NCBI GenBank assembly: GCA_016214355.1
Contig: JACROO010000045.1
Location: 1-32,179, forward strand
From: Nitrospirota bacterium
GTDB taxonomy: Bacteria > Nitrospirota > Thermodesulfovibrionia > UBA6902 > DSMQ01
Reading direction: 5' to 3'
DNA: 32,179 nt
The notes under the pieces were generated by a model. It searched no databases. It saw nothing but the letters and a program-made list of their open reading frames with translations, and was not told where the DNA came from. A program made the translations under genes and the position numbers. Positions 28,797-32,179 of this stretch are shown piece by piece (position 1 is the stretch's first letter; each line of letters starts with the position of its first letter).

Positions 28797-29387
28797 ATGA
28801 ACACAAGAACACAGGAACTCATGAATTTTTTTCAGAGCCATGGCGGGGTGGCCCGTTTTTCTACTGTTCTGAAGGCTGGATTTCATCCTGATTCGCTTAT
28901 TGCTCTTGAAAAAGAGGGGAAGGTTGAAAAGATTGCCCGGGGCCTTTACCGGGTGGCCAATTATACCCATGGTACACATCCGGATCTTGTTATTGCATCA
29001 CTTCAGGCACCCAGAGGCGTTATTTGTCTTCTTTCTGCTCTGTTTTTTTATGATGCAACAAGCGAGATCCCAAAGTATGTAGCCCTGGCTATTCCGCAAG
29101 GTAGTCATGCAAATAGAATTAAGTATCCACCGGTAAGATTTTGCCGTTTTGCGTCTAAAGCATGGAAAGCAGGGATTGAAGAGCATGAAATTGAAAGACA
29201 GTATAGCCTCGCTAAGACGATTGCCGATTGTTTTAAATTCCGTAATAAAATAGGTATGGATGTCGCCAGAGATGCCCTCAAGGTTGCTGTTACAGAAAAA
29301 AACATAACTCCAAAAGAAATTATGAAATACGCCAAAATTTGCCGTGTTGATAGCATTATAAAACCAATACTGGAAGCTATGATATGA
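28797..29387 (+). CDS. abiEi: AbiEi-family antitoxin (type IV TA)
   Basis: FFQSHGGVARFSTVLKAGFHPDSLIALEKEGKVEKIARGLYRVA (wHTH) + AbiEi C-terminal-like region ERQYSLAKTIADCFKFRNKIGMDVARDALK; overlaps abiEii by ATGA. Confidence 0.85.
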   Translation: MNTRTQELMNFFQSHGGVARFSTVLKAGFHPDSLIALEKEGKVEKIARGLYRVANYTHGTHPDLVIASLQAPRGVICLLSALFFYDATSEIPKYVALAIPQGSHANRIKYPPVRFCRFASKAWKAGIEEHEIERQYSLAKTIADCFKFRNKIGMDVARDALKVAVTEKNITPKEIMKYAKICRVDSIIKPILEAMI

Positions 29388-30298
29388 AAAAGGATATTAA
29401 GAATATAAAAGCTTCTGTTCGCGCCCGTCTTCAAGATAAAGCGAAGGAAGCTGCTCAGCCATTTTCAGAAATTCTGCAATATTATGGGATGGAGAGATTC
29501 CTTTATAGGTTTAGCCGTTCTAAATATGCGGATAAATTTATCCTGAAAGGCGCGCTTATGTTTACAGTTTGGCAAGTTCCACAAAGACGGACAACGCTTG
29601 ATATAGATTTCTCAGCACGCTATGACAATCAGATAGCAACTATTGAGAAAGTAATCAAAGATGTATGTAAGGTTTCGGTGACTCCAGACGGGCTTGTTTT
29701 TGATTCGCAGACAGTAAAGGGACAGAAAATAAAAGAAGATGCTGATTACGAAGGCATACGTGTTAAATTTAGAGGTTTTTTAGAACGCTCACGTATCCCG
29801 ATGCAAATTGATATTGCTTTTGGCGATATCATCTATCCAAAACCTAAAGTTATTGATTATCCTGTTATTTTAGATTTTCCTAAACCCCATCTTAAAGGAT
29901 ATCCCGCAGAAAGTGTTGTTAGCGAAAAATTTGAAGCTATGGTTAAGTTAGGTCTTTTAAACAGTCGCATGAAGGATTTCTATGATATTTGGCTCATGAT
30001 GCGTCAGTTTGATTTTGATGGTCTAAAACTCGTTGAAGCTTTAAAAGGAACCTTTGAACATCGTAAAACTCCTTTGCCAGAGCATAAACCATTATTCGCT
30101 GAAGAAATTTACGATGAAAAATCCGATCGCCAAACATTATGGAAGGCTTTTCTAAAAAAGGGAGATATTAAATACGTACCAGAAAAGTTGCGCACAACAG
30201 CCACAGAGATAGAACAATTTCTTATTAACCCGCTTGATGCAATTTATAGAAGCCAAGAGTTTAGCAAAGAATGGAAATCCGCAGGACCGTGGAAATGA
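29384..30298 (+). CDS. abiEii: AbiEii nucleotidyltransferase toxin
   Basis: FILKGALMFTVWQVPQRRTTLDIDFSARYDNQ (NTase GG/DxD-like) ... YPAESVVSEKFEAMVKLGLLNSRMKDFYDIWLM. Confidence 0.9.
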   Translation: MKKDIKNIKASVRARLQDKAKEAAQPFSEILQYYGMERFLYRFSRSKYADKFILKGALMFTVWQVPQRRTTLDIDFSARYDNQIATIEKVIKDVCKVSVTPDGLVFDSQTVKGQKIKEDADYEGIRVKFRGFLERSRIPMQIDIAFGDIIYPKPKVIDYPVILDFPKPHLKGYPAESVVSEKFEAMVKLGLLNSRMKDFYDIWLMMRQFDFDGLKLVEALKGTFEHRKTPLPEHKPLFAEEIYDEKSDRQTLWKAFLKKGDIKYVPEKLRTTATEIEQFLINPLDAIYRSQEFSKEWKSAGPWK

Positions 30299-30409
30299 GA
30301 AATGATGAAAGAAGAAGTATAGTATAAGATAATGAAAACCGCCTTATACATAAGAGTATCCACCGAAGACCAAGCCAAAGAAGGCTATTCTCTTGAAGTC
30401 CAGAGGGAG

Positions 30410-30450
30410 CCCCTATAGATTCTTTCAGAATCTAAACACAGGGATAGATA
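30410..30450. mobile_element. 41-nt hairpin insertion in the recombinase gene
   Basis: CCCCTAT-AG-ATTCT-TTC-AGAAT-CT-AAAC-ACAGGG + atagata. Confidence 0.7.
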
Positions 30451-30480
30451 TATCTTGAGTCCTTTGCTGAAAGGGAAGGG

Positions 30481-30560
30481 CACCCCCATGGTTTTGATAC
30501 CCGTAGTTTTCCTTATGGAAAACATAGCACGGGTACAGGACAAAACAAAATATGGGGACG
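30481..30560. mobile_element. 80-nt nested hairpin insertion in the recombinase gene
   Basis: Outer CCCCAT-G-GTTTTG...CAAAAC-AAAAT-ATGGGG containing inner TACCCGT-AG-TTTTCC-TTAT-GGAAAA-C-ATAGC-ACGGGTA. Confidence 0.7.
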
Positions 30561-30668
30561 TATGAGATTTATAAAATCTATCAGGATGATGGGATAAGCG
30601 GCTATTCTACCGAACGTCCTGCTTTTTAATTAAAACCCTTGCTCAAATATTGTAAAATATCTGTTACC

Positions 30669-30959
30669 ATGAGTTTTAAACGTAATGCTGTGTTTTTCGT
30701 ATATATCGTTAAATGTGCTAACGGAACATATTACACCGGTTACACAAATAATCTCGAGAACCGAATCAAACTACACAATAAAGGGGATGGCGCAAAGTAT
30801 TTAAAAGGAAAGTTGCCGGTCCAGTTGGTTTATGCTAAAGAATATAAATATTATAAAAATGCGTTGCATGCTGAGAGGAATTTAAAGAAGTTGACTAGGA
30901 AAGAGAAGGAGGTATTAATTTCGAACTATGAGCGCACAAATGGAAATTTATCCCTATAG
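30669..30959 (+). CDS. GIY-YIG nuclease superfamily protein (UPF0213/YhbQ-like)
   Basis: VYIVKCANGTYYTGYTNNLENRIKLHNKGDGAKYLKGKLPVQLVYAKEYKYYKNALHAERNLKKLTRKEKEVLI; the stop TAG is supplied by the downstream hairpin. Confidence 0.92.
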   Translation: MSFKRNAVFFVYIVKCANGTYYTGYTNNLENRIKLHNKGDGAKYLKGKLPVQLVYAKEYKYYKNALHAERNLKKLTRKEKEVLISNYERTNGNLSL

Positions 30960-30985
30960 ATTCATTCTGAATCTATACATAGGGA
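30951..30985. repeat. Bulged hairpin E
   Basis: TCCCTAT-AG-ATTC-ATTCT-GAAT-CT-ATAC-ATAGGGA. Confidence 0.85.
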
Positions 30986-31002
30986 TTAGAAAAAAAGGTT
31001 GC

Positions 31003-31038
31003 CCCCGTAGTTTTGCTATTGCAAAACTGGACACGGGG
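31003..31038. repeat. Bulged hairpin A
   Basis: CCCCGT-AG-TTTTGC-TATT-GCAAAA-CT-GGAC-ACGGGG. Confidence 0.9.
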
Positions 31039-31098
31039 ACACCCATGTCTAAGTTTTCAGGTGGTATTTTATGAGATACTACTCCAGAATGTTTAGGT

Positions 31099-31139
31099 GC
31101 TCCCACAGATTTGCCGCTGCAAATCTAGGACGTGGGAGC
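31099..31139. repeat. Bulged hairpin B
   Basis: GCTCCCAC-AG-ATTTGC-CGCT-GCAAAT-CT-AGGAC-GTGGGAGC. Confidence 0.9.
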
Positions 31140-31194
31140 AACCGTGTCCAGGTTTTGAGGAAAATATGAAATATTTTCTCAAAACCTACGGTTG
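31139..31194. repeat. Bulged hairpin F overlapping the miaB start (opposite orientation)
   Basis: CAACCGT-GTCC-AG-GTTTTGAGGAAAATAT-gaa-ATATTTTCTCAAAAC-CT-ACGGTTG. Confidence 0.9.
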
Positions 31195-32179
31195 TCAGAT
31201 GAATGTCCACGACTCTGAGAAGATTGCAGGTATTCTCTCGGAATCAGGATATAATGCGGCAGATTCTGTCACAGATGCTGATGTGATAGTTCTGAACACA
31301 TGCAGTGTGAGGCAAAAGGCAGAGCAGAAGTTTTTTAGTGAACTGGGAAGGCTGAAAGCAGAAAAAAAGAAAAATCCTGATTTAAAAATTGCTGTTGCCG
31401 GCTGTATTGCACAGCAAAGGGGCAGCGATATATTTGAACGTTTCCCTTATGTTGATTTTATTTTTGGTCCTCAGAATATTGATAGTCTTGAGAAGTGGAT
31501 ATCAGACAAACCACAGGCAATAGACGCCAGACAACAGACATCAGACTACGCAGTACGCGGTACGAGATACGCAGAACAGAATCCTATAAAAAGGGAAGGG
31601 CAGGTCAAGGCATGGGTAGCTATAATGCACGGTTGTAACAACTTTTGTTCGTACTGTGTTGTGCCTTATACCCGCGGCAGGGAAAAAAGCAGGCACAGCA
31701 TGGACATTCTTAATGAGATTAGGGAAATTGCAGTGCAGGGGTTTAAAGAGGTGGCACTTCTTGGGCAGAATGTTAATTCCTATGGCAAAAATCTTCCTGA
31801 AAACATAGACTTTCCAGATTTACTTAAAGTAATCCATGAGATAAATGACATACAAAGGATTAGATTTATCACCTCTCACCCTCGGGACCTTTCAGAAAAA
31901 CTGATAAAAACAATGCGTGACCTGCCTAAAGTATGTGAGCATATGCACCTGCCCATACAGGCAGGCTCTGACAAAATCTTATCACTTATGAACAGGGGGT
32001 ACTCATACATTCAGTACAAAGAGAAAATTGACATGCTCAGAACAGAAATCCCTGATATTGCTATAACAACAGATATAATCGTTGGTTTCCCCGGGGAGAC
32101 TGATGATGATTTTGAATGTACAGTTAACGCCTTGAAGGAGATAGAGTTTGACGGTATTTTTGCCTTTAAATATTCAAAA
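31166..32179 (+). CDS. miaB: tRNA-2-methylthio-N6-dimethylallyladenosine synthase (partial, runs off the window)
   Basis: MKYFLKTYGCQMNVHDSEKIAGIL...NTCSVRQKAEQKFFSELG...AWVAIMHGCNNFCSYCVVPYTRGREKSR...HLPIQAGSDKILSLMNRGY...TDIIVGFPGET. Confidence 0.97.
   Translation, partial: MKYFLKTYGCQMNVHDSEKIAGILSESGYNAADSVTDADVIVLNTCSVRQKAEQKFFSELGRLKAEKKKNPDLKIAVAGCIAQQRGSDIFERFPYVDFIFGPQNIDSLEKWISDKPQAIDARQQTSDYAVRGTRYAEQNPIKREGQVKAWVAIMHGCNNFCSYCVVPYTRGREKSRHSMDILNEIREIAVQGFKEVALLGQNVNSYGKNLPENIDFPDLLKVIHEINDIQRIRFITSHPRDLSEKLIKTMRDLPKVCEHMHLPIQAGSDKILSLMNRGYSYIQYKEKIDMLRTEIPDIAITTDIIVGFPGETDDDFECTVNALKEIEFDGIFAFKYSK
31522..31577. repeat. Heptad-stutter tandem, in frame in the miaB linker
   Basis: AGACGCC AGACAAC AGACATC AGACTAC GCAGTAC GCGGTAC GAGATAC GCAGAAC; encodes DARQQTSDYAVRGTRYAEQ. 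Confidence 0.9.

Follow-up and report, generated by a model that had tools for sequence, protein, structure and literature searches.

What are the bulged hairpins that lie in front of miaB in this Nitrospirota contig, built on one plan and variable in sequence, and by what means did they come there? In this work, we addressed this question for the window, i.e. the whole analysed stretch of 32,179 nucleotides, which forms contig C37 of a 1.85-Mb genome assembled from a metagenome (completeness 85 %). The initial annotation had described five hairpins of one layout (an outer stem, an AG/CT step, an inner stem and a one-sided bulge) and a sixth as a near fit. All were found in their places; the six share the layout, four of them strictly, and the sixth (h2) is indeed a near fit, having CA for CT and a 5-base bulge. 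A seventh hairpin (h7), enclosing h2, had been missed. The features considered are the following.

30332-30629, + strand: remnant of a resolvase (serine recombinase) gene, cut by h1 and h7, as read from the sequence.
30410-30445, + strand: h1, inserted after ..GTCCAGAGGGAG, with one outer-stem mismatch (sequence and covariance model).
30483-30557, + strand: h7, a degenerate member of the family, whose loop encloses h2 (sequence).
30498-30536, + strand: h2, located within the h7 loop, with CA in place of CT and a 5-base bulge.
30669-30959, + strand: GIY-YIG nuclease gene (UPF0213-like; Pfam PF01541, 7e-18), its stop codon in h3.
30951-30986, + strand: h3, containing the TAG at which the GIY-YIG gene stops (sequence and covariance model).
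31002-31040, + strand: h4, the top covariance-model match (56.7 bits).
31039-31100, - strand: decayed (-) hairpin with a putative old miaB start (sequence).
About 31098-31140, + strand: h5, which aligns with the Elusimicrobia and FCPU426 copies.
About 31138-31194, - strand: h6, the (-) hairpin at the miaB start.
31166-32179, + strand: miaB, native, ending at the contig end.

A strict scan of the 32-kb window (outer stem of at least 5, AG/CT, inner stem of at least 4, bulge of 3-6, loop of at most 20) returned exactly four places, h3 to h6, against a mean of 0.05 and a maximum of 1 in dinucleotide-shuffled windows. The arms of h7 read CCCCCAT-GG-TTTTG ... CAAAA-CA-AAAT-ATGGGG. Directly upstream of the resolvase remnant, an AbiEi/AbiEii-type toxin-antitoxin gene pair (PF13338, PF08843) occupies positions 28797-30298. 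A contaminant contig was ruled out: the miaB of the window is 59-70 % identical to same-order orthologues vs 49-51 % to Omnitrophota, so that the contig is native.

A covariance model was built from the six hairpins of the window and applied to relatives at E <= 0.01, the E-values being rough. The initial annotation had named a lack of further copies in such a search as refuting the family, which was not the outcome; in the host genome the model matched only these six at good scores, and two of the 149 related genomes, both of the same order, contained dispersed copies (27 in G007 and 34 in G018), the other 147 giving zero matches at this threshold. A pattern scan of GTDB species recovered the family in G018 (bacterium BMS3Bbin09) and in genomes of four other phyla, by their record titles Omnitrophota, Desantisbacteria, Elusimicrobia and FCPU426, with 15, 16, 4 and 2 copies by the covariance model, respectively; all copy numbers are lower bounds, and the assemblies are draft metagenomes. 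On viral contigs, 14 exact matches to CCCGTAG..CTGGACACGGG formed no hairpin and were discarded as chance. The hairpins of the window are genuine, and the family of mobile DNA to which they belong is common to bacteria of at least five phyla.

It is the structure of these copies that is conserved rather than their sequence, in agreement with the covarying stems proposed at the outset. Among 103 distinct copies, 94.8 % of the pair cells are paired, and two-sided changes occur at 13 of the 14 pairs, a figure reached by 0 of 500 shuffles. G-U and A-C mismatches are equally frequent (about 20 and 23, the last inner pair left out); a G-U wobble excess, the test for RNA function, was not found among the copies, which argues for pairing maintained in the DNA itself rather than in a wobble-paired RNA. 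No Rfam match up to E = 1 was obtained for positions 30000-31400, and this part of the window therefore holds no known intron; a free-standing arrangement of the GIY-YIG gene is compatible with this result.

The copies behave as mobile DNA, because they nest, interrupt the resolvase gene and sit 3' of co-oriented genes. A homologous resolvase gene in G007 (C33) has hairpins at partly different sites: the two genes share one insertion (h7), and h2 is present in its loop only in the window, the counterpart of h7 without h2 lying at L151 557-595 of G007. In G018, the bulges of outer hairpins are split at RRGA|C by inner ones; if the latter are mentally removed from the sequence, the consensus bulge reappears. 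Some G007 hairpins are likewise nested in the loops of others, and one composite, made of a hairpin with another nested in it, is repeated there in differing contexts; three copies of it lie in duplicated histidine-kinase genes, to which they give the C-terminus and the stop codon (L239 3180-9781, G007 C53; shared last residues VAPLDSAPAVLC + stop). In the same locus, at 143755 and 149238 of C53, short new palindromes (TCCCG..CGGGA) occur within the right arm of standard hairpins, and their sequence looks as if they had just been formed by inverted copying. Hairpin copies are mostly outside ORFs, and most are found shortly 3' of a same-strand gene (61 vs 23, p = 4e-5, an approximate value as ORF calls were simple and some palindromes were counted on both strands).

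The protein encoded between h1/h2 and h3-h6 has UPF0213 proteins (1zg2, 1ywl) as its closest solved structures. Its GIY-YIG motif residues are intact, and Y12, Y22, G24, R32, H36 and E69 are invariant in its clade (10 sequences). In a tree of 23 sequences, this clade unites the miaB-linked GIY-YIG proteins with that of G018 (support 0.93-0.99), and it has a member in six of the seven hairpin genomes. The exception is G007, in which the 27 hairpins coexist with no clade gene, the best GIY-YIG match reaching only 44 % identity. Matches of at least 60 % were obtained in 4 of 150 relatives searched (the window genome, G018, G010 and G023); the clade genes of G010 and G023 (73-74 %) have neither hairpins nor miaB directly beside them, and both genomes lack hairpins. 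The GIY-YIG gene and the hairpins can hence exist apart. The clade gene of these two genomes is flanked by a histidine-kinase gene on one side and by ars genes on the other (L232, L233), and in G010 miaB is situated about 1.7 kb downstream of it. Viral, phage and plasmid collections gave no match to the clade at 60 % identity or more. To our knowledge, no UPF0213 protein is a demonstrated homing enzyme.

The association of this clade with miaB was observed at nine loci (window included) in five phyla, each with a clade GIY-YIG gene and then a palindrome whose right arm consists of miaB codons T-Y/F-G-C. The full order, i.e. GIY-YIG gene, (+) hairpin and (-) palindrome ending in miaB K/Q-T-Y/F-G-C-Q, was found at L156 (Elusimicrobia), L069 (FCPU426) and L159 (Omnitrophota), whose genomes were first reached through hairpins alone; a clade member stands next to miaB in all four of the other-phylum genomes reached by the hairpin pattern alone. 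A GIY-YIG gene with an unbulged palindrome occurs in Desantisbacteria (L178/L200) and at L197 (G419, from the phylum of the Omnitrophota genome), and the miaB palindrome has no bulge in Omnitrophota, Desantisbacteria and G436. Querying 149 genomes of the phylum of the Elusimicrobia genome with the GIY-YIG protein, without the hairpins, brought three more cases to light, all at loci that matched best, in G428, G436 and G493 (L242 and L244 were found in this way), while six loci below about 55 % GIY-YIG identity had no hairpin by the model. In G493 (L245), a KTFG* remnant is found at the cassette end and the next 1.3 kb or so contain no miaB, as in a copy detached from the gene; alternatively, miaB may have been lost there afterwards. 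The cassette is absent at miaB in Nitrospirota relatives, and the exact pattern of the miaB inverted repeat, searched in 395 Nitrospirota genomes, was recovered from the window genome only. Searches of open-access papers revealed neither a link between GIY-YIG genes and miaB nor a free-standing GIY-YIG homing element with palindromes.

In the window, the right arm of h6 consists of miaB codons F-L-K-T-Y-G-C and is thus protein-coding; the left arm is an inverted copy of it with GTCC inserted, and the miaB ATG lies in the loop, as does the new ATG at most linked loci. The initial annotation had recognised h6 and overlooked the coding nature of this arm; more generally, it was right about the hairpins of the cluster and had missed the GIY-YIG gene among them, as well as h5/h6 being the 3' end of a miaB cassette. 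The miaB codons P-K-V..T-F-G are partly palindromic on their own. The palindrome at the miaB start measures 10-27 bp in six GIY-YIG-linked genes vs at most 9 in eleven unlinked ones, and its left arm follows each host's own codons. Between the window and G428, which belong to different phyla, identity is 72 % for the GIY-YIG gene; the 60 bases that precede the target reach 84 %, the 21 bases of the target itself 100 % and the following 60 bases 55 %. Up to miaB codon 13 the range is 72-100 %, and beyond it the value is 55 %, the identity of the target being raised somewhat by the conserved peptide encoded there (76-90 % in other pairs).

Upstream peptides resembling the MiaB N-terminus were detected at four of these loci. 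The GIY-YIG frame of L156 itself starts MKFYLRTYGC, and MKEQKFHIQTFG precedes the GIY-YIG frame in L242. Before the last (+) hairpin, L069 has MKFFFRTYGC, and at the same place the window has, within the decayed hairpin (31071-31100 (+), ATGAGATACTACTCCAGAATGTTTAGGTGC), the comparable decayed peptide MRYYSRMFRC. In our reading, these peptides are former starts of miaB that were interrupted at T-Y/F-G-C, and the cut site and the new start are thus documented in four loci.

These observations suggest that the GIY-YIG cassette is homing-like and that REP-like hairpins derive from it, a reading to which we assign a probability of about one half; together, the hairpins and the GIY-YIG gene at miaB have the look of a homing or transposable element of a kind not described before. 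The hairpins would be its palindromic modules, and the full element would consist of the small GIY-YIG gene, followed by a bulged (+) hairpin and, directly adjoining it, a (-) palindrome ending in the first miaB codons. The cassette would enter miaB at codons T-Y/F-G-C, and miaB would stay usable because a new 5' end is brought along, usually with a start codon in the palindrome loop. The window may have seen two such rounds: an older insertion, with the GIY-YIG gene, h3, h4 as its (+) hairpin, the decayed (-) hairpin and the old miaB start, and a newer one, with h5 as its (+) hairpin, h6 and the present miaB. Single scattered, nested or intergenic hairpins elsewhere would be non-autonomous derivatives. 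While the association of gene, palindrome and miaB is demonstrated, the enzymology is inferred: the nuclease would cut the target, homing proceeding by repair from a cassette-bearing copy, and may also drive the hairpins, whose arms would be kept matched by copying one from the other. Against this reading count the hairpins of G007 without a clade gene, the clade genes of G010 and G023 without hairpins, the unbulged miaB palindromes, the partly palindromic miaB codons and the second explanation for L245. Rather doubtful is the more far-reaching version in which a new class of mobile element uses the GIY-YIG nuclease to insert hairpin modules into hairpin-prone sites. One arm would then be built as a copy of the target, which would give every hairpin stems of its own within a shared bulged architecture, and at miaB the gene start would be replaced within the loop.

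The strongest rival holds that the hairpins are REP-like elements moved as single-stranded hairpins by a Y1 (RAYT) transposase, with RYAG as guide and CT as cleavage dinucleotide, GIY-YIG/miaB being a mere hot spot; we consider it possible, though unlikely. It owes its rank to the AG/CT step, as cleavage at C|T, chosen through the A-G of GTAG, has been reported for TnpA_REP (PMC8266576), and to GGGGWSAS-like ends, which are common to some RAYT terminal repeats (PMC3733652). REP-like copy number and intergenic 3' placement speak for it too, as do the presence of Y1_Tnp in five of the seven hairpin genomes and a RAYT gene of G151 (L077 1174-1972, C13) that has GGGGGACGG terminal repeats and a TG..CA hairpin variant between repeat and gene. 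The initial annotation had suggested looking for a Y1/HUH transposase; no Y1_Tnp was found in two hairpin-rich genomes, G018 (34 hairpins, 92 % complete) and G150 (15 hairpins), and across the seven genomes searched a family hairpin stands at only 1 of 34 Y1_Tnp loci, on one side only and near chance, which speaks against RAYT as the hairpin source. Furthermore, the four RYAG bases are not free: AG pairs with CT, and RY with the outer 3' arm. The linkage of GIY-YIG to miaB is also left without explanation. In the window's own genome, a RAYT-type gene (L002 1380-2160, C119) is flanked by GGGACAGACAC repeats, with no bulged hairpin. Both main readings could be partly true, RAYT-type hairpins having been captured by a GIY-YIG cassette.

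Alternatively, replication template switching might generate palindromes and multiply them in place, as a fold-back copying that keeps the arms matched with no dedicated enzyme. Pair types that change without G-U intermediates, the short new palindromes next to older ones in G007 and the host-specific left arm at miaB would suit this process, which we nevertheless judge improbable: it would erase the conserved bulge, it explains neither why few genomes have tens of copies nor why the same cassette occurs in five phyla, and h7 with and without h2 already suggests a clean empty site. Still less probable are conserved RNA hairpins that act in a 3' UTR, as a terminator or in translation control and owe their spread to selection, not to mobility; the bias towards same-strand upstream genes and the miaB start codon inside a hairpin loop would fit them, against which stand the missing G-U excess and Rfam match, the nested and gene-interrupting copies and the patchy spread. 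Hardly credible, finally, is a simple inherited gene neighbourhood in which the palindrome is incidental. Several related phyla do have the same gene order, and the G010 gene lies near miaB; yet the arrangement is absent in Nitrospirota relatives although the miaB of the window is native, interrupted miaB starts lie upstream in L156, L242, L069 and the window, and identity falls inside miaB.

If the homing-like cassette is real, it ties a tiny nuclease of UPF0213 type, a widespread protein family without clear role, to palindromic DNA and to a conserved gene start within one mobile element. It would mean that one cassette was transferred across phyla into a housekeeping tRNA-modification gene, and it would offer a concrete test case for palindromic repeats arising and spreading without a Y1 transposase.

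Compared with known systems, the hairpins resemble integron attC sites in being bulged, conserved in structure, variable in sequence and placed 3' of same-orientation genes. Unlike attC, they form no cassette array and have no core boxes, RYYYAAC / GTTRRRY being absent from the listed copies and the pair table save for a chance GTTAGAT in a G007 outer hairpin, and identity with attC was thus rejected. The likeness to GTAG REP/RAYT palindromes, drawn in the initial annotation, holds for small size, tens of copies per genome, a mostly intergenic position 3' of genes, RYAG 5' and CT 3' of the inner stem, and stem irregularity; it fails for the paired tetranucleotide, the extra outer stem acting as a clamp, the RRGAC bulge, the strongly variable but covarying stems, the self-nesting and the lack of a consistently linked RAYT. 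UPF0213 (YhbQ/YazA) proteins share family and length with the nuclease; those are ordinary chromosomal genes elsewhere, whereas the clade described here is tied to miaB and hairpins. Free-standing GIY-YIG homing elements (e.g. phage seg genes) are similar in having a small nuclease gene with intact catalytic residues at a conserved coding site, which is interrupted here and uninterrupted in close relatives, in identity confined to the insertion site and in a patchy, cross-phylum distribution. The present element differs from them in its UPF0213/YazA-like single domain with no recognised DNA-binding part, and in bringing hairpins and a replacement gene start into bacterial chromosomes.
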